Of a stretch of DNA of 44,487 nucleotides, positions 8,559-42,239 are shown one piece after another. Position numbers and translations under genes: made by a program. Below the pieces are notes generated by a model. That model had not been told where the DNA came from. It did no database searches and saw only the letters and a list, made by a program, of their open reading frames with translations. The DNA lies in IMG/VR virus record IMGVR_UViG_3300040810_000367, positions 1 to 44,487 of that record; one strand, 5' to 3'. Numbering within the stretch: the first letter of the stretch is position 1; every line of letters starts with the position of its first letter. Origin of the DNA: a virus.

Positions 8559-9542
8559 ATGAAGAAGTTTATTATCGGAATGGCTATTGCTGTGGCTGTA
8601 GTCTTTACTACTATTATTCCTGCAAGTGCAGAAAATACAAAGGCACGTTTGGTTATTGATATTGGTCCACTTGGTGTACATAGTTGGATCCTTAAAGGTA
8701 TCAAAGACGGTGCATTTGCCCGTCGAGGCGTCGACGTAGAATTTATTGGCAAAGGCCCAGGCAGTGTAAAAACTGCACTAGCACTTTCCGCTGGCAAAGC
8801 AGAGCTTGGCTATCATGACTACAGCGGTCTAGTTCTTGTTAATAGCAAGTCTGCTGACCCTAAAGTTACAGCCATTTTTGTTGTAGATGACAAAGCACAA
8901 GACGCTGTTTTTAGCTTGAAAGAAAAAGGTATTACAAGTTTTGATAAGCTAGACGGTAAAACATTGGGCGGCTTTATCACAGGCGTTACAAATAAAGTAC
9001 TACCCGCCGTAACAACTGCAAAGTGGGAAATGGTTAACATGCCTTTTAGTGCTCGTGTTCCCAGTCTTACTACTGGTAAGGTTGATGCAGTAGAAGGTTT
9101 TATTACAACCAATGTTTTTAACTTTGAAAAGGTTGGCGTGACACGTGATAAGCTGAATATTATTAGGATGAGCGATAAGTTTCCAACAGCAGTTAGTCGT
9201 GTTATCACAGTTAACAGCGATTGGGCAGCAGCAAATCCAAAGGCTGTAGTTGCAATTCGCGAAGTACTACGTGAACTAGTTGCAGGCTTTGTTAAGAATC
9301 CAGCAGCAAGCGTAGCAACTTTAAGTGGACCTATTGTGTCAACTGATGCAAAGAGAGCACTAGAATTACGCCGCGCACAATACGGTATTAACGAACTAGT
9401 TAATACACCTTTTGTACAGAAGAACGGTATTAGTAACGCAAAGGCCGTTGGCCCACGTCTAAGTGAATACACTTCGTTGTTAGTTACAAAACTAGATCTA
9501 CCAAACCGTCATTCAGACTCAAAGTATTTTGATCTAGATTAA
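8559..9542 (+). CDS. ABC transporter substrate-binding protein, NMT1/SsuA/TauA type
   Basis: 327 residues. A classical signal peptide (MKKFIIGMAIAVAVVF...PASA|EN) directs it to the periplasm. The mature part has the type II binding-protein pattern of the nitrate/sulfonate/taurine/thiamine-precursor family: a glycine-serine loop followed by AxxAxGKAELGYHDY (GPGSVKTALALSAGKAE), then FDKLDGKTLGG, VPSLTTGKVDAVEGF and a helical C-terminus. Length matches SsuA/TauA. The ligand cannot be read from sequence; small organic sulfur, nitrogen or pyrimidine-type compounds are typical for the family. It overlaps the permease gene (TAATG). The late promoter means it would be made late in infection, which is unusual for a nutrient-uptake protein. 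Confidence 0.9.
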   Translation: MKKFIIGMAIAVAVVFTTIIPASAENTKARLVIDIGPLGVHSWILKGIKDGAFARRGVDVEFIGKGPGSVKTALALSAGKAELGYHDYSGLVLVNSKSADPKVTAIFVVDDKAQDAVFSLKEKGITSFDKLDGKTLGGFITGVTNKVLPAVTTAKWEMVNMPFSARVPSLTTGKVDAVEGFITTNVFNFEKVGVTRDKLNIIRMSDKFPTAVSRVITVNSDWAAANPKAVVAIREVLRELVAGFVKNPAASVATLSGPIVSTDAKRALELRRAQYGINELVNTPFVQKNGISNAKAVGPRLSEYTSLLVTKLDLPNRHSDSKYFDLD

Positions 9543-10282
9543 TGAAACATACAGCTATAACTGTTTCCGCAGTTATTCTGCTATGGGAACTAGTACTCAA
9601 AGGAGGATATATTCCAGGACTATGGGATATCATAACAACCTTCTTTGAGTTACTAGTAAATCCTGACTTTTTATTCAACCTTTGGACTAGTCTATGGCGA
9701 CTTACAGTAGGCTGGTCCATTGGTATGTTTATCGGTTCAACTATTGGGATTGTTATGGGCACGAATTATCATGCACGTAAACTTATAATGCCTCTAGTAA
9801 GTAGCTTATTTCCTATTCCAAAAATAGCACTTCTTCCGCTTTTTGTTGTGTTACTTGGATTAGGAGAAGTAAGTAAAGTTACAACTATCTTCATAGGTGC
9901 ATTTTTTCCAAGTATCATTACAGCATATGGTAGCGTATTACGCACACCAAAAACCTACATAGAAGCTGGCAGGGCATGTGGTGGCAACACATATATGATT
10001 ATACGTAAGATTATACTTCCTTATAACCTTCCTACTATTATACAAGGGTTTAGAACTAGCGGGAGCCTTGCCTTAACTCTATTGGTAGCAGCAGAAATGC
10101 TTGGCGCAAAGCATGGACTAGGACATTGGATATTTCTTACAGGAGGCGAAATGGCATTTGCAGAAATGTTTGCTGGTATTATCTGGTTAAGCATTATAGG
10201 ATTAAGTATTAACTTGGGTGTAGAATACCTTAGGCGAACATTATGTTTTTGGAGTACGCTAAGTGAAGGTAATGATAGATGA
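9542..10282 (+). CDS. ABC transporter permease, SsuC/TauC type
   Basis: 246 residues with about six membrane spans and the cytoplasmic EAA loop EAGRACGGNTYMIIRKIILP (about residues 141-160), the site where the ATPase subunit docks. It belongs to the BPD_transp_1 family of nitrate/sulfonate/taurine importers and pairs with the binding protein just upstream. No ATP-binding subunit is encoded nearby: the next gene, which overlaps by 4 nt, has a PP-loop rather than Walker A/B motifs. The complex would need a host ATPase of the SsuB/TauB type. Start ATG overlaps the preceding stop. Confidence 0.9.
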   Translation: MKHTAITVSAVILLWELVLKGGYIPGLWDIITTFFELLVNPDFLFNLWTSLWRLTVGWSIGMFIGSTIGIVMGTNYHARKLIMPLVSSLFPIPKIALLPLFVVLLGLGEVSKVTTIFIGAFFPSIITAYGSVLRTPKTYIEAGRACGGNTYMIIRKIILPYNLPTIIQGFRTSGSLALTLLVAAEMLGAKHGLGHWIFLTGGEMAFAEMFAGIIWLSIIGLSINLGVEYLRRTLCFWSTLSEGNDR

Positions 10283-21518: not shown

Positions 21519-21668
21519 ATGAAACATTTGAAAGAAACGGGCTATACATATTTCGCCCATATGCGTAGAGCATTTTGTATAGCCTTTGTCCTTGTTGTCC
21601 ATGGTATTTTTCCGGACATTTGGACAGACAAAGCAACCCAAATGCTTTGTGATCACGATAAAGAATAA
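21519..21668 (+). CDS. DUF6356-like small membrane-associated protein
   Basis: 49 residues, MKHLKETGYTYFAHMRRAF..., starting 2 bp after the upstream stop. The arrangement MKHLKET...Y...H..RA...A..L..HG.FP.IW...A matches my memory of the DUF6356 family of short alphaproteobacterial and phage proteins. The centre (FCIAFVLVVHGIFP) is hydrophobic enough to associate with the membrane. The last codons overlap the -35 box of the tmRNA promoter. No function is known. Confidence 0.7.
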   Translation: MKHLKETGYTYFAHMRRAFCIAFVLVVHGIFPDIWTDKATQMLCDHDKE

Positions 21669-21669
21669 G

Positions 21670-21698
21670 TTGACAAATCTCCTAAAATATAGTTAAAT
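21670..21698 (+). promoter_or_regulatory. Sigma70 promoter of the tmRNA
   Basis: TTGACA (21670-21675), exact 17-bp spacer, TTAAAT (21693-21698). The -10 region also reads TTAAATA, so the late machinery may use it too. Predicted start is near 21705. Confidence 0.75.
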
Positions 21699-21704
21699 AG
21701 TATT

Positions 21705-22070
21705 GTAACGTTGAAGCCAAGCAAAAGGCGAACAAGACCCGGGTGCGAATCCCGGCGCCTCCACCATAAACACATGAGGATATAATGAATTGGGATTGGC
21801 ATTGGATTAGTTGGTTTAAAGGAACTCCTTTTCAATGGGGCGAATTTAAATTAAATAGTGGAAATCCTTATAAAAGTTATAGATTTGGGCCATTACTTAT
21901 TCGTGTGTTTCTGAGGGGGGCGAACTAGGTATCGATTGGCGTTGTATAGCGAAGTGGAGTTACCGGTAGGCGAGACCGTAAATCAGCAAAAAACAATAAA
22001 TGCTAACGATAATGTAGCATCTGAGGATTTTGCTCTAGCAGCATAATCTCATGGGGTGGGCAACCTACCT
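21705..22070 (+). ncRNA. ssrA: Circularly permuted two-piece tmRNA (acceptor piece, spacer, coding piece)
   Basis: Acceptor piece (about 21705-21766): T-stem CCGGG (21739-21743)/CCCGG (21751-21755) with 7-nt loop, 3' acceptor strand CGCCTCC (21756-21762), A73 and CCA at 21764-21766. Coding piece from 21916: 5' strand GGGGGCG (21916-21922) pairs with CGCCTCC over 7 bp, with a G-U pair at position 3, the alanyl-tRNA synthetase identity element. Next comes GGTATCGA, the usual D-loop region of tmRNA, then structured sequence, then the tag reading frame GCT..TAA at 22002-22046 encoding ANDNVASEDFALAA. The ANDN start and ALAA end match alphaproteobacterial tags. It would rescue stalled ribosomes and tag proteins for ClpXP. 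The spacer (21767-21915) must be removed by host RNases. The T-loop (TGCGAAT) lacks the usual second T, a small oddity. Confidence 0.93.
21785..21928 (+). CDS. 47-codon ORF inside the tmRNA intervening segment
   Basis: The ORF starts 19 nt after the acceptor CCA with GAGGA at 21776-21780 four bases before the ATG, and ends with TAG at 21926-21928 inside the coding piece, so it reads through the 5' acceptor strand. The product is Trp- and aromatic-rich (MNWDWHWISWF...SYRFGPLLIRVF). Length, ribosome site and composition suggest a real small protein, but there is no known family. Translation and tmRNA processing would compete for the same transcript. Chance ORF remains possible. Confidence 0.5.
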   Translation: MNWDWHWISWFKGTPFQWGEFKLNSGNPYKSYRFGPLLIRVFLRGAN

Positions 22071-22071
22071 A

Positions 22072-22097
22072 GCAACAGAAATGGTTGCATTTTTTTT
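22072..22097 (+). terminator. Intrinsic terminator of the tmRNA
   Basis: GCAAC-AGAAATG-GTTGC stem (22072-22088) followed by A and T8. Confidence 0.85.
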
Positions 22098-22103
22098 GCT
22101 AAA

Positions 22104-33633: not shown

Positions 33634-34056
33634 ATGAATACACTCACAACTCTTGACATCCCTACACTACATCGTAACTTTATTGGCATCGATCGACTAT
33701 TAGATCGTATGGCATATAATGTGGCACAGGATGGATACCCACCCTACAATATTATCCAGGAATCAGAAGACCGATTCGTTATCGAGCTTGCAGTAGCAGG
33801 CATCGATGAGGATGCTATTGACGTCACTGAACATCAGGGAGTTCTTACTGTAGAAGCAAAGAACAAAACTGAAAGCGATGAAACAAACTACCTACATAAA
33901 GGTATTAGCACACGCCGCTTTAAGCGTACATTTACACTTGCAGAGCATGTTTATGTGCAAAGCGCAGATGTAAAGAATGGTATTCTTAGCATCGTGCTAG
34001 AACGTGACATCCCAGAAGAGATGAAACCACGTTCAATCCCAGTTAAATTTGGGTAA
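33634..34056 (+). CDS. hsp20: Small heat shock protein (Hsp20/alpha-crystallin)
   Basis: 140 residues from ATG 33634; AAGGAG 8 nt upstream decides it over the in-frame 33610 start. The alpha-crystallin domain runs from YNIIQESEDRFVIELAVAG to GILSIVLERDIPEE, with FKRTFTLAEHV as the central strands and a C-terminal I-P-V motif (RSIPVKF) for oligomer assembly, as in IbpA. Hsp20 is a core auxiliary gene of marine T4-like phages, holding partly folded proteins during heavy capsid synthesis. Confidence 0.95.
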   Translation: MNTLTTLDIPTLHRNFIGIDRLLDRMAYNVAQDGYPPYNIIQESEDRFVIELAVAGIDEDAIDVTEHQGVLTVEAKNKTESDETNYLHKGISTRRFKRTFTLAEHVYVQSADVKNGILSIVLERDIPEEMKPRSIPVKFG

Positions 34057-34106: not shown

Positions 34107-34409
34107 ATGGAAGATACAAAGACTACACTAGATCTAAAGAGTGTGCTGAATATCGATCCACCAAGGGATTTTAAAGTCATTTATATGAATGACGATGTAA
34201 CAACATTTGACTTTGTAAGTGGCAGTCTCGTAAGAATTTTCGATTATGATGAAGATCCAGCACAACAAAAAGCAGTAGAAATCAACAACAACGGTAGCGG
34301 AGTTGTTGCACTACTACCTTTTGAGATCGCAGAACAAAAAGGTGTAGAAGTTTTATTGGCTGCACGTAATCACGGTTACCCACTTCAAGTTCGTATCGAA
34401 CAAGAATAA
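34107..34409 (+). CDS. ClpS-like protease adaptor
   Basis: 100 residues. DFKVIYMNDDVTTFDFVSGSL matches the ClpS core with N28-D29, which bind the N-terminal amino group of substrates, and FEIAEQKGVEVLLAARNHGYPL matches the C-terminal half. At the place of the invariant His of ClpS (V-H-x-x-G) this protein has E58-I-N60-N-N, so the second ligand of the N-degron pocket is changed. The N-terminal extension that activates ClpAP is short but present. It may divert or block host ClpAP. GGAG is 6 nt before the ATG. Confidence 0.85.
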   Translation: MEDTKTTLDLKSVLNIDPPRDFKVIYMNDDVTTFDFVSGSLVRIFDYDEDPAQQKAVEINNNGSGVVALLPFEIAEQKGVEVLLAARNHGYPLQVRIEQE

Positions 34410-38429: not shown

Positions 38430-38876
38430 ATGCGAACTGTTATAGCTACAGTCTTTTTCAGCATGATTCTTTTCACCCAAGCAGCCGCTGGGGAACTTAG
38501 ACACACTTGGCGTTCACCTGCCTTTAGTGGTGTGGGCTATAGCAGTCATGTATTGACTATTGAAAACCTTACACACCAACGCAAGGCTGATATTAAAGCC
38601 AAAGAAGAAGCTAAGGCTAGAGAGTTAGAGCGTGAAGCTGAAAATACAAACATTAACAAGTTTATGAAGAACTTTGAAAGTCGCGTTTACGCTGAATTAA
38701 GTAAACAGTTGAGTGAGCAGTTATTTGGGGAATCAGCTTCAAGCGAAGGCACTATTGAAATACTAGGAAACACTATTGATTATACTAGCGATGGTACAAA
38801 TCTAACAATGACTGTTACCGAAGCCAGTGGTACAACAACCACACTTACTGTACCACTTACTGGATTTGGATTCTAA
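38430..38876 (+). CDS. csgF: CsgF-like curli assembly factor
   Basis: 148 residues. Signal peptide MRTVIATVFFSMILFTQAAA, then the CsgF-type opening ELRHTWRSPAFSGVGYSSHVL, comparable to the FxFRNPxFGGNP region that inserts into the CsgG pore. A charged helix (KADIKAKEEAKARELEREAE) is longer than in E. coli, followed by FESRVYAELSKQLSEQLFG and the C-terminal IEILGNTIDYTSDGTNLTMT beta region, both typical of CsgF. It would couple subunit secretion to nucleation at the cell surface. Stop and next start overlap (TAATG). Confidence 0.88.
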   Translation: MRTVIATVFFSMILFTQAAAGELRHTWRSPAFSGVGYSSHVLTIENLTHQRKADIKAKEEAKARELEREAENTNINKFMKNFESRVYAELSKQLSEQLFGESASSEGTIEILGNTIDYTSDGTNLTMTVTEASGTTTTLTVPLTGFGF

Positions 38877-39718
38877 TGTTTAAACTTGCTGCAACAATAG
38901 TAATGGCACTTAGTCTAACAGGATGTGTGGTTGGCAATGAGATTGCTAAAACAATGCCACCTACACCTACAGTCACTCCATTACAAAAGGGACTTAGAGA
39001 TTTTCCAAAGATCTCTAACAACAAACCTGTGACGGTTGCAGTTTATAACTTTTTAGATAAAACAGGACAGCGTAAACCTGCAGATAATATTGCAAACATC
39101 AGTACCGCTGTAACACAAGGTGCAGAGATATATTTGATCAAAGCATTAGATGACATTGCAGATGGTAACTTCTTTGATGTGGTCGAACGTGGTGGAATGG
39201 AAGCTCTGGTTAAAGAACGACAGATCATTCGTCAAGCAAGACAGAAGTTTCAACCAGATAAAGGACTTGCTCCGCTAAAGTTTGCAGGTGTAATTATTGA
39301 AGGTGGCATTGTAGGCTACGATACAAACAAGTTTACAGGAGGTGCTGGCGCACGTATTATGGGCATAGGGCCTATGACAGAATGGAGGGCCGACATTGTA
39401 ACTATAGGCTTACGAGCAGTTAGCGTACTCACAGGTGAAGTTATTCTAGCAGTAAGTGCAGAGAAAACAATACTCAGCACAAATACTTCTATTAATGTAT
39501 TCAAATTTTATGATTTAGGTACAAAGGTATTAGAGATAGAAGCAGGCACAAGCACAAATGAACCAGTAAACTATGCTGTGAGACAAGCAATAGAGTTTGC
39601 TGTTGTGCAAATGGTTAAAGAAGGCAAGCGCAAGGGATACTGGAACTATGACAGTACAAAGGTTCCAGAAAAATTTATTCAAAAGGAGTCTAATCTAGAT
39701 ATAGAAGACGTCAAATAA
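38876..39718 (+). CDS. csgG: CsgG-like outer-membrane curli secretion channel
   Basis: 280 residues, the family length. A lipobox ends at C17 (LSLTGC). VAVYNFLDKTGQRKPADN, NISTAVTQGAE, FFDVVERGGMEALVKERQIIRQ, VIIEGGIVGYDTNKFTGGAGAR and the later TSINVFKFYDLGT...STNEPVNYAVRQAIE follow CsgG closely. Of the constriction residues, Tyr57 and Asn74 are kept, while the Phe is Ile75. The protein should form the nonameric secretion channel in the host outer membrane. It partners CsgF and the curlin-like substrates encoded next to it. Confidence 0.95.
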   Translation: MFKLAATIVMALSLTGCVVGNEIAKTMPPTPTVTPLQKGLRDFPKISNNKPVTVAVYNFLDKTGQRKPADNIANISTAVTQGAEIYLIKALDDIADGNFFDVVERGGMEALVKERQIIRQARQKFQPDKGLAPLKFAGVIIEGGIVGYDTNKFTGGAGARIMGIGPMTEWRADIVTIGLRAVSVLTGEVILAVSAEKTILSTNTSINVFKFYDLGTKVLEIEAGTSTNEPVNYAVRQAIEFAVVQMVKEGKRKGYWNYDSTKVPEKFIQKESNLDIEDVK

Positions 39719-39741
39719 ACAAGAACTTTAGGAGGAATACT

Positions 39742-40440
39742 ATGAGGAGCATAGTAGTAGGAGCAGCACTACTGTTGGTAATGTCTAGTCCAGCATTTGC
39801 CGACAACTTGATCTATATTGATCAAACAGGTAGTAGTGCAACAATTAATATTAACCAAGACGGTTCAAGTAACCGTGTTGGTGCAAGTGGAGACGATAGC
39901 GTCAGCGATGGTGCAACTACCACTATGGACATCGATCAAGTTGGTACAAGCAACGAATTAGATTATGATATCTATGGCGACAACGCCAATATTACTTCTA
40001 ACATAACCGGTAACTCATCAGACGTTGACGTCCAGGTTGGTACTACAGGCGGTAGCAACGGTGGATCAGATGATGTCGACATTACTATTAACGCAAGTGG
40101 TGGTAACTCAAATACAGTTAGTACTAGTGTAGGATCAACTGCCAGTGGCGTTGAAGATGTTGACATTGATGTTGATATTACTGGCGGAAGTAATAGCGTA
40201 ACTATCACAGAAAACTCAACAGCAGCTAGTGTAACAGATAAGATCACAGACGTTGATATTACTGGTAGCACTAACACTGTTACCATTACTAAGAGCGGTG
40301 CATCACAGCATGACACTACACTAGGAATTACTGGTTCGTCTAATACAACAAGTATAACTCAATCAGGTGCAGAAGCGAGTACTGTAGATGTTACAACTAA
40401 CGGGTCTAGTTCTAGCGTTACTATTACTGTTACAGATTAA
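39742..40440 (+). CDS. Curlin-like repeat protein 1
   Basis: 232 residues. Signal peptide ends AFA|DN. The mature protein is almost entirely Ser, Thr, Asn, Gly, Asp, Ile and Val, with repeats built like curlin strands: YIDQTGSSATININQDGSSN, MDIDQVGTSNELD, VTITKSGASQ, TSITQSGAEAS. The I/V-x-Q/K-x-G-x-x-N/S spacing is as in CsgA/CsgB, though Asp is more frequent. It is the likely amyloid-forming substrate of the CsgG channel. GGAGG is upstream. The FecR gene starts within its last 53 nt. Confidence 0.82.
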   Translation: MRSIVVGAALLLVMSSPAFADNLIYIDQTGSSATININQDGSSNRVGASGDDSVSDGATTTMDIDQVGTSNELDYDIYGDNANITSNITGNSSDVDVQVGTTGGSNGGSDDVDITINASGGNSNTVSTSVGSTASGVEDVDIDVDITGGSNSVTITENSTAASVTDKITDVDITGSTNTVTITKSGASQHDTTLGITGSSNTTSITQSGAEASTVDVTTNGSSSSVTITVTD

Positions 40441-41476
40441 TTTTGTAACCGTAGCGCATGCCGCAGTAGGCAAAGTCGAACAGCAGATGGGAACTGCTGA
40501 AGTGCTTCGTAGTGGCGATAAGCAACTAAGCCAAGTAGGCTTTGGTATTGAAATGCGTGATGACGTTAGAACCGGAAACGGTATTGTAGGAATAGGATTT
40601 GACGATAAAACTAAAGTTCGTGTTGACAAACACTCGAAATTGGTAATAGACGAATTTGTCTATGATCCAAAAAAGCCTAACGCAAGCAAACTAGGACTTA
40701 AGATTGCGTTGGGTACTGTCCGATACGCCAGTGGACTCATTGCAAAACAGAACCAACAGTCTGTTAGCATCCGCACTCCCACCGCGTCTATTGGTGTTAG
40801 AGGAACGGCATTCAGTATGACCGTGGACGAGATCGGTCGTTCTCTGGTCATACTGTTGCCTAACCCGGACGGTACAGTAGGTGAAATAGCAGTTACAAGT
40901 GATGTGGGCACTGTCATTATGAACAAGGCTTTTCAAGCAACACTTGTAACTGCCACCGAAAAGACTCCAGCAAAGCCAGTAATATTGGATTTGTCTGAAG
41001 CACAGATTAACAACCTGTTGATTATTCAGCGACCAAAAAAGATTGAAAAAGAATATGAAACAGACGAAGAAAGTAACAATGTACTAGATTTTAATGAACT
41101 AGACGTTGACTTACTAGCAGTAAATGAATTGGAAGAAGAACAATTAGCATTTACAAGACTTGACTTTAACTTACTGGATGTTGATCTACTGGCTAATATT
41201 CTAGATATTTTAAACAGAAGATTGTACGAACAAACAGATCGTTTTCCAACCAATCCCATTGTAGCAGGTGTTTATGAAGAAGGCAATACACAAATATTTG
41301 GCGGTGAACAGGAAGACTGGGAAATATACAGACAGGTTGATGGACGTGTGGTAAGCATTAAAACACCTAGTACACAGGATACACGTATTACATTGCGTCA
41401 GGCTGGCACGCCTGATCTTATGCTACACACTACGGAGGGCGCGAATGATTCGCAAATTATTATTAATCAAAACTAG
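40388..41476 (+). CDS. FecR-domain exported protein
   Basis: 362 residues. A signal peptide (MLQLTGLVLALLLLLQINF...VAHA) is encoded within the overlap with the curlin gene, in another frame. VGKVEQQMGTAEVLRSGDKQ...DDVRTG opens the FecR domain, whose signature TPTASIGVRGTAF is at about 131-143. C-terminal to it are Leu/Asp repeats (LDFNELDVDLLAVNELEEE, LDFNLLDVDLLANIL) and an end LHTTEGANDSQIIINQN that looks like one curlin repeat. FecR domains sense or bind in the periplasm; no sigma factor gene is adjacent. It may link fibre assembly to signalling. Confidence 0.85.
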   Translation: MLQLTGLVLALLLLLQINFVTVAHAAVGKVEQQMGTAEVLRSGDKQLSQVGFGIEMRDDVRTGNGIVGIGFDDKTKVRVDKHSKLVIDEFVYDPKKPNASKLGLKIALGTVRYASGLIAKQNQQSVSIRTPTASIGVRGTAFSMTVDEIGRSLVILLPNPDGTVGEIAVTSDVGTVIMNKAFQATLVTATEKTPAKPVILDLSEAQINNLLIIQRPKKIEKEYETDEESNNVLDFNELDVDLLAVNELEEEQLAFTRLDFNLLDVDLLANILDILNRRLYEQTDRFPTNPIVAGVYEEGNTQIFGGEQEDWEIYRQVDGRVVSIKTPSTQDTRITLRQAGTPDLMLHTTEGANDSQIIINQN

Positions 41477-42239
41477 TTTCGTCCTTATGATGAGTGTAGC
41501 ATATGCTGATAACCTCATCACTATTGAACAGGTTACCAGTGGTAACTCAAACAGTATTACTGTCTCTGTAGAGGGCAGTAACAACGAGGTAAATTTTAGT
41601 TTTGGTGGTGCGAGTAATACAGTAGACATTGACCAAAAAGGTGACAATAGTTATGTTGGATATACCTCAGCATGGGGCAGTGGTGCACTATGGGGTGGCG
41701 ACTTGGATGGTGACAGTAACAATCTAAATGTTACACAGACATGTAATCAATCTCCATGTGGCGGTGATAAGTTTGAGTTTCATATAGCAGGCAATTCTAA
41801 TGATGTTGATTTCTATCAAGGACACAGAGTTGATGCTGACGGAACACTACATAGTATAGATGATTATGAATATGGTGGACATTTTACACGATTAGATATT
41901 CATGGTTCTAACAATAAGTTTTTGGGAAGTCAACGCTCAGATAACTCAGGACACGAACATTCAAACATTACCAACATCTATGGCAGTAATAATGATGTTT
42001 ATACAAGACAGACAAATAACCAAGATAAAACACTAAACTTAACCATCAACAATTCTAATAATGATGTTGATATGATACAGAAGGGAAGTGCAACTCACAG
42101 TGCCACGGTTACGATAGGTGGTTCGTATGCAACAACACTATACATGTTGCAACAAGGTAGCACTGCACAATCATATAGTTTGACGCAAGACTGTCAAACC
42201 ACAGGTGGTTGTAGTGTAAGTGTTACACAGGGTAACTAA
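41445..42239 (+). CDS. Curlin-like repeat protein 2
   Basis: 264 residues. Signal peptide ends AYA|DN, and the mature start DNLITIEQ mirrors DNLIYIDQ of curlin-like protein 1. Asn/Ser/Gly/Asp-rich strands recur (GNSNSITVSVEGSNNEVNF, NLNVTQTCNQ, HGSNNKFLGSQ, YGSNNDVYTRQTNNQ) with spacing of about 20-25 residues. Four Cys are present, unusual for curlins. It overlaps the FecR gene by 32 nt. It may be the nucleator or a minor fibre subunit (inference). Confidence 0.75.
   Translation: MIRKLLLIKTSFVLMMSVAYADNLITIEQVTSGNSNSITVSVEGSNNEVNFSFGGASNTVDIDQKGDNSYVGYTSAWGSGALWGGDLDGDSNNLNVTQTCNQSPCGGDKFEFHIAGNSNDVDFYQGHRVDADGTLHSIDDYEYGGHFTRLDIHGSNNKFLGSQRSDNSGHEHSNITNIYGSNNDVYTRQTNNQDKTLNLTINNSNNDVDMIQKGSATHSATVTIGGSYATTLYMLQQGSTAQSYSLTQDCQTTGGCSVSVTQGN

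Follow-up and report, generated by a model that had tools for sequence, protein, structure and literature searches.

A permuted tmRNA gene of a tailed marine phage and its intervening sequence as a probable slot for small protein genes

Permuted tmRNA genes of the alpha type (Rfam families RF01849 and RF04321) have a fixed order of two pieces, an acceptor stem with a G3-U70 pair, a T-arm, an encoded CCA and a tag that ends in LAA, and the locus described here shares all of these. Two-piece tmRNAs are already known from phages. According to PMC9004378, 402 phages hold 133 unique tmRNA structures, and 53 of these are two-piece as called by ARAGORN. The cultured phage Melnitz carries a two-piece tmRNA that is closest to the alphaproteobacterial ones, yet its host, OM43, is not one of the Alphaproteobacteria (PMC9004378). 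The type of a tmRNA therefore does not give its host. PMC11915505 counts 11,946 permuted tmRNA sequences and 79 from phages.

The two pieces of a permuted gene are separated by an intervening sequence (IVS), and foreign content has been reported there. PMC11915505 describes single cases in which the IVS holds a tRNA-Ala gene or a repetitive element; these resemble the window in having foreign IVS content and differ from it in having no protein genes. The available text of that paper, with its one IVS tRNA gene, does not mention a protein gene in an IVS, nor does the available text of PMC3978253, a review of permuted tRNA genes, mention one in the IVS of a tmRNA. Other tmRNAs are interrupted by group I introns, some of which carry homing endonuclease genes (PMC11915505). 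As in the window, a protein gene lies in a segment that is removed; group I introns, however, are self-splicing, sit in the T-loop and encode endonucleases, whereas in the window the host segment is a permuted gene's spacer and the small proteins come from different families. Among the matches listed in a search of open-licence papers, no published description of a protein gene in the IVS of a permuted tmRNA was found. Some tRNA precursors, too, carry small protein genes; an example is tpr, on the tyrT transcript of Escherichia coli. There, one transcript is both the precursor of a stable RNA and the mRNA of a small protein, as proposed below for the phage gene, but the ORF trails the tRNA, whereas in the window the two halves of a single RNA enclose it.

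The DNA analysed here, referred to as the window, is the whole of a viral contig of 44,487 bases. The same record carries a virion structural gene (phrog_1645, E 3.8e-110). An earlier note, made from the sequence alone, had placed a phage-encoded, circularly permuted two-piece tmRNA in it, and its coordinates proved accurate. Rfam covariance models and ARAGORN identify positions 21705-22091 as a complete permuted tmRNA gene. With cmscan, RF04321 (tmRNA_permuted) matches 21705-22046 at 115.2 bits (E 6.5e-22, cut-off 47). The search with the alpha-tmRNA model that the note had proposed gives 91.5 bits for RF01849 (alpha_tmRNA) at 21666-22091 (E 1.1e-23, cut-off 50). Both matches are full length and untruncated. 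ARAGORN calls a permuted tmRNA with the tag ANDNVASEDFALAA, and this frame terminates in the proteolysis signal LAA. The acceptor strands CGCCTCC and GGGGGCG form the seven pairs that the note had recognized, including G3-U70, with a pairing probability of 0.97-1.0 in the folded precursor. By homology, the IVS would be absent from the mature tmRNA. In a blastn search against phage records, the tmRNA matched 8 records, in each case over a short stretch near the T-arm. The Rfam matches, in a virus record with a virion gene, support a two-piece tmRNA that is encoded by a phage and is of the alphaproteobacterial type.

The note had gone further on three points. It implied that a two-piece tmRNA in a phage is new, which the 53 structures cited above contradict. 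It held that the tmRNA identifies the host class, and Melnitz argues against this. Its third point, active ribosome rescue under phage control, is an inference that the analysis does not itself support. An attempt to derive the host from NrdA was uninformative, as the ten isolate matches listed were diverse large phages with 58-62% identity.

The tmRNA gene is preceded by a promoter that the note had called a consensus sigma70 promoter. The -35 element TTGACA is perfect, but the -10 element 17 nt on, TTAAATAG, is weak, so "consensus" is too strong, and a consensus promoter scan did not list it. The architecture itself recurs: of 124 distinct regions upstream of related tmRNA genes, 79 have TTGAC(A/C/T), 16-18 nt and a TA-type -10, compared with a mean of 1.7 in shuffles. 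The most frequent form has 17 nt and TATAAA (63 of the 79). At the other end, the intrinsic terminator that the note had seen was recovered by a terminator scan as the stem GCAACAGAAATGGTTGC with a T run at 22072-22088. The stem lies within the RF01849 match and is therefore also the last hairpin of the tmRNA itself. The features of the locus are listed in Table 1.

Table 1. Features of the tmRNA locus in window coordinates.
Feature	Position	Strand	Basis
DUF6356 protein gene, 49 aa, directly upstream of tmRNA	21519..21668	+	Pfam PF19883, E 3.6e-6
Promoter: TTGACA 21670-21675, 17 nt, weak -10 TTAAAT 21693-21698	21670..21698	+	Sequence; architecture in relatives
tmRNA acceptor piece	21705..21766	+	RF04321 alignment; fold
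Parts of acceptor piece: T-arm; 3' strand CGCCTCC; A73; CCA	21739-21755; 21756-21762; (A73); 21764-21766	+	RF04321 alignment; fold
Intervening sequence (IVS), 149 nt	21767..21915	+	Long insert in both Rfam alignments
IVS closing stem, left arm AAACACA	21768..21774	+	Pairs with 21904-21910 (probability 0.85-1.0)
Shine-Dalgarno site GAGG, 5 nt ahead of ATG	21776..21779	+	Sequence; SD-like motif in 20/24 surveyed nested ORFs
Nested protein gene, 47 aa, MNWDWHWISWFKG...LLIRVFLRGAN	21785..21928	+	ORF; 43 related contigs; pN/pS 0.16
IVS closing stem, right arm TGTGTTT, also encoding the end of the peptide	21904..21910	+	Fold
tmRNA coding piece; acceptor 5' strand GGGGGCG 21916-21922	21916..22091	+	Rfam, fold; end from RF01849
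Tag reading frame ANDNVASEDFALAA and stop	22002..22046	+	ARAGORN
3' hairpin and T run: end hairpin of tmRNA, doubling as intrinsic terminator	22072..22097	+	Terminator scan; RF01849 match to 22091

The note was correct on the tmRNA and overlooked a 144-nt ORF that spans the IVS. Its translation is MNWDWHWISWFKGTPFQWGEFKLNSGNPYKSYRFGPLLIRVFLRGAN. The last codons and the stop codon, the TAG of GAACTAGG, fall within the coding piece of the tmRNA. Among 18 full-length variants, pS is 0.22 and pN 0.036, a ratio of 0.16 that points to purifying selection, and the variable columns number 6, 7 and 21 at codon positions 1, 2 and 3. For this set, four of 44 loci fell outside the extraction pattern, one truncated variant was excluded and only the first of two copies in one contig (L278) was used. 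Judged by these substitutions, the IVS ORF is a protein gene and evolves as a protein. The ORF belongs to no family in Pfam or PHROGs, and a tblastn search of 50,697 phage records with it found nothing at E 1; a diverged homologue (L082) likewise has no match in the phage records. A PDB profile search returned five weak matches, four of them antibody chains, with a best E of 0.089, and these were dismissed. The structure model of the peptide is poor, with a pLDDT of 64 and three predicted strands. A group I intron with a homing endonuclease gene was rejected for this tmRNA on its uninterrupted T-arm and on the missing Pfam or PHROG match of the ORF.

Relatives of this nested (MNWDWHW) gene were found in 43 other viral contigs by alignment search and in 38 viral stretches by a DNA pattern. 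In the bacterial and archaeal genome collection, 16 stretches fitted a pattern, none of which was confirmed. In 35 of the 44 contigs, window included, an acceptor piece precedes the ORF and a coding piece follows it, and the strands of the two pieces pair. In L288 it starts at the contig edge and a coding piece follows, and in L280 an acceptor piece is followed by an ORF that reaches the contig edge. Three contigs (L273, L286 and L287) have the ORF after an acceptor piece without an adjoining matching coding piece, and four (L256, L257, L262 and L278) have it outside any tmRNA, so the IVS is not obligatory for the gene. The copies in L256 and L257 have longer C-termini. In L082, a tRNA-like sequence with a terminal CCA precedes the diverged homologue. 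Several arrangements were seen by the way. L278 has two copies, at 2187 and 3001, about 800 bases apart and both outside a tmRNA. In L241/L273 (at 1110) and L214/L286 (at 106), an acceptor piece and the MNWDWHW ORF stand without a coding piece and a second, complete tmRNA lies further on, which looks like a partial duplication of the acceptor half. In L262 (2900-3200, on a contig shared with L219), a copy is inserted where another gene starts, and its flank shows a duplication of about 14 bases, identified by eye; this looks like illegitimate recombination at micro-homology.

The nested gene diverges less than the tmRNA around it. In the 120 pairwise comparisons among 16 representatives, DNA identity averages 0.95 for the ORF, 0.76 for the acceptor piece, 0.73 for the coding piece and 0.62 for the left flank, where unrelated pairs give about 0.6. 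In an alignment of the window locus with four relatives, the IVS of L209 is nearly identical to that of the window, and the tmRNA halves and the tag have diverged. With 95% identity in the ORF against 73-76% in the tmRNA halves, the gene seems to have been exchanged between phage tmRNA genes, although constraint from the IVS closing stem, described below, could explain part of its low divergence instead of recent exchange. The tmRNAs that hold the gene look functional, as their acceptor stems differ in compensatory fashion. In a test where the coding strand was placed by a downstream motif, independently of pairing, the strands around the ORF pair at 7/7 positions in 32 of 33 copies, and at 6/7 in the remaining one (L268). 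The combinations are CGCCTCC/GGGGGCG (25), CACCTCC/GGGGGTG (6) and CGACTCC/GGGGTCG (1). A fourth, CAGCTCC/GGGGCTG, was located in L276 and L277 with pairing as the criterion. The cargo of the window is a W/Y/F-rich protein of 43-51 aa that seems to be spreading between phage tmRNA genes.

A survey of permuted tmRNAs over all viral loci covered 130 distinct combinations of IVS and ends. A narrower set came from two scans with tmRNA patterns alone, each listing about 120 stretches and favouring certain tmRNAs. In this set the strict scan, which accepted only tmRNAs with 7/7 acceptor pairs, gave 116 distinct IVSs among the matches listed, with a median of 74 nt and 32 of at least 105 nt. With the loci called only by ARAGORN added, there were 158 among the matches listed, with a median of 81 nt and 48 of at least 105 nt. 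Nested ORFs were counted in the 32 long IVSs of the strict scan, the 16 long IVSs from ARAGORN alone standing outside the count. They were defined as at least 30 codons long, starting no more than 50 nt from the CCA and ending no more than 30 nt from the end of the IVS. Among the matches listed, 24 of the 32 contain such an ORF, compared with 2.8 in shuffles (sd 1.5, maximum 9, 300 trials), and an SD-like motif precedes 20 of the 24; the other 8 long IVSs have none by this rule. ORF length alone is a weak test: p 0.05 is reached by 16 of 43 IVSs of at least 105 nt and by 3 of 51 IVSs of 60-104 nt. Among the matches listed for a tag pattern, 119 viral loci, ARAGORN called 64 with a permuted tmRNA and 8 with a standard tmRNA. 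In one set, 3 of 83 tmRNAs were left unparsed. Rfam tmRNA models match all 15 loci that were checked (12 viral with IVS ORFs and 3 from MAGs). In 10 loci with an IVS of about 60-100 nt, Rfam shows only tmRNA and tRNA as structured RNAs.

The ORFs in these IVSs belong to several apparently unrelated families, and the selection seen in them is stronger evidence than ORF length. Four further families, one of them in two length classes, have pN/pS ratios of 0.17-0.31 in the frame of the ORF, compared with 0.48-3.4 in the other two frames. The membrane-like peptide MKNPLV... gives 0.26 and 0.18 in its two length classes (four and three sequences; one member was taken from L311, where the contig ends, and not from L371, which has the same protein). 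With two sequences each, MEIIWHILL... gives 0.27, MTKITKEN... 0.17 and MDEV... 0.31. The IVS ORF of L354 belongs to Pfam DUF6356 (E 5.1e-12), and that of L379 is weakly DUF2061-like, under the curated cut-off. Two other IVS families have no match in 50,697 phage records. Our conclusion from these patterns is that phages probably use the IVS of their permuted tmRNA genes as a slot for small protein genes. Two loci stood out in other respects. In L025, a glutamine riboswitch (2150-2198) lies upstream of a tmRNA with a nested IVS gene, and L112 (8151-9439) has two permuted tmRNA genes with different tags on one contig, their starts about 930 bases apart.

The slot has an anatomy of its own. The ends of the IVS pair with one another, with 9.3 bp on average for an IVS's own arms and 5.2 bp (sd 0.16) for arms swapped between phages. 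The test used 104 distinct pairs of IVS ends, 82 of them with at least 6 bp, and the closing stem, by this comparison, covaries across phages. The position of the stop codon differs among the 24 nested ORFs of the matches listed: it lies one base before G1 in 12, 7-28 bases before it in 5, and, as in the window, 13 bases into the coding piece in 7.

Bacterial tmRNAs served as a control. Among 77 distinct bacterial IVSs, the median is 28 nt and a single one is at least 105 nt long, whereas the IVS of the window has 149 nt and holds a protein gene. The control comprised 120 loci from bacteria and MAGs, found with a slightly different pattern; ARAGORN called 79 permuted tmRNAs and none in the other 41. 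Two bacterial tmRNAs and one phage tmRNA were left unparsed, and two ARAGORN hits that ran off the contig start were dropped. The single long control IVS belongs to a MAG contig that also carries T4-like replication genes. A stricter scan of the bacterial and MAG loci added three more long IVSs. In three of the four long-IVS loci (L417, L448 and L465), the contigs match phage families of replication, nucleotide metabolism or lysis and are taken for phage contigs within MAGs; the fourth (L484, from a MAG), with an IVS of 196 nt, was assigned to neither the phage nor the bacterial class. The MAGs of these three phage-like contigs with tmRNA genes are labelled Euryarchaeota, Muricauda and Rickettsiales, and such contigs could explain some reported archaeal tmRNAs.

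Some of the families found in the slot also stand beside tmRNA genes. DUF6356 is encoded ahead of the tmRNA in the window and inside the IVS in L354. In Melnitz, a homologue of the MEIIW peptide terminates 3 nt ahead of the annotated SsrA. L063 (MEIIW family), L127 (L465 family) and L290 (DUF2061-like protein) each have an ORF that ends within a few bases of a tmRNA start, as located by ARAGORN or by the scan. Other ORFs of IVS families lie 20-424 bases upstream or at least 178 bases downstream, and some loci have no detected tmRNA; as most loci were fetched for a tmRNA, proximity is inflated in these distances.

Melnitz and its relatives (PMC9004378; MZ577097) are the closest described phages, and share with the window a two-piece tmRNA, an upstream promoter, curli genes and the nature of a tailed marine phage. 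Our analysis found an IVS of 142 nt in Melnitz, with a 54-codon ORF that has an SD site, as in the window, and a stop 42 bases into the coding piece. This ORF has no homologue among the loci collected here and is a candidate nested gene. The available text of PMC9004378 describes no gene in the IVS of Melnitz. Unlike Melnitz, the window has no glutamine riboswitch at the Rfam gathering score.

The window carries other genes of interest. A ClpS adaptor is encoded at 34107-34409 (PF02617, E 2e-20), adjoining a gene for an HSP20 small heat-shock protein (33634-34056). Relatives of ClpS were found in 109 stretches of viral contigs but in only 14 of 50,697 phage records, the latter with 32-36% identity. 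ClpS affects the substrate choice of ClpAP, and the ClpS of the window may bear on tmRNA-tagged proteins. A curli block at 38430-42239 encodes CsgF, CsgG and a FecR-like protein, together with a pair of proteins that have curlin-type repeats; one of the pair scores just above the Pfam cut-off and the other below it. As the available text of PMC9004378 mentions only pore genes, the curli subunit-like genes of the window may be new. Parts of an ABC transporter, an NMT1/THI5-like substrate-binding protein and an inner-membrane permease, are encoded at 8559-10282.

Taken together, it is very likely that in this tailed marine phage the IVS of the permuted tmRNA gene is a gene slot and that the precursor, besides giving rise to the tmRNA, acts as mRNA for a small protein. 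A single precursor would be transcribed, comprising the acceptor piece, the IVS and the coding piece. The acceptor stem and the covarying closing stem of the IVS would stack as one long helix, and the small protein gene, led by a Shine-Dalgarno site of its own, would form its loop. Serving twice, the precursor would yield both tmRNA pieces through processing of the tRNA type (RNase P before G1 and 3' trimming to the CCA), and the IVS would remain as a short, stem-closed mRNA. Unrelated small genes of about 32-78 codons occupy the slot in different phages, and some of their families adjoin the tmRNA gene in others. The benefit may be co-expression with the tmRNA at almost no genome cost. The covariance-model matches of the tmRNA, the protein-level selection on the nested ORF, the variety of the cargo, the covariation of the closing stem and the unequal divergence of gene and tmRNA are direct results; the exchange between phages, the processing, the translation and the benefit we infer.

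Other explanations have to be weighed against this one. By its length alone (p 0.07), the ORF of the window could have arisen by chance in the AT-rich spacer of a permuted tmRNA of the ordinary kind. Its pN/pS over 18 variants, its SD site, the 43 related contigs and the reading frame kept in copies outside tmRNAs make this most improbable; the codon-level conservation rules it out unless the variants should prove to be artefacts, though the length test alone is weak. The genes might instead be hitch-hikers in an IVS that tolerates insertions by illegitimate recombination, expressed by read-through or from other promoters, so that their location would be incidental. The cargo families, which look mutually unrelated, the MNWDWHW copies outside tmRNAs (in L256, L257, L262 and L278) and the insertion in L262, with its short duplicated flank seen by eye, speak for this explanation. 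Against it stand the ORFs that fill the IVS in 24 of 32 cases among the matches listed, mostly behind an SD-like motif, the closing stem that is kept and the promoter architecture upstream of the tmRNA, and we regard it as possible but somewhat unlikely.

Rather less likely is that the genes are retained for their function, with IVS proteins acting on trans-translation or the proteolysis linked to it, where SmpB, RNase P and Clp adaptors would be conceivable targets. The recurrence of families within or directly beside tmRNA genes fits this, as does the ClpS adaptor also encoded in the window, but ClpS is 12 kb distant, and the mix of cargo (short hydrophobic membrane-like peptides, DUF6356, the weak DUF2061-like protein and others) ill fits one function.

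A further possibility, which we hold to be doubtful, concerns regulation in the proposed dual-purpose precursor. In the window, the nested gene runs on into the coding piece, where the acceptor strand and the bases after it hold its last codons and its stop, so translating ribosomes would have to melt the acceptor stem. Peptide and tmRNA production might then be mutually exclusive for each transcript. The RNase P cut would remove the stop codon and so create a nonstop mRNA; the released tmRNA would tag the product of this mRNA for destruction, and the gene would both report on tmRNA maturation and be silenced by it. The logic would be like that of ArfA. As a general rule, this autoregulation was rejected, as the stop precedes the cut in most other IVS families; the 43-aa variants of the window's own family also have their stop ahead of the cut.

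If the gene-slot reading is right, a segment of tmRNA genes that has been treated as a discarded spacer would be a place where phages keep and trade small genes, and the pre-tmRNA would be a dual RNA, at once an mRNA and the precursor of a stable RNA. The analysis also carries a warning, as the type of a tmRNA does not reveal the host. A simple rule would follow for finding unannotated small proteins of phages that are co-expressed with ribosome rescue, and the reading can be tested in the cultured phage Melnitz. It would also suggest a reason why some phages retain permuted tmRNA genes.
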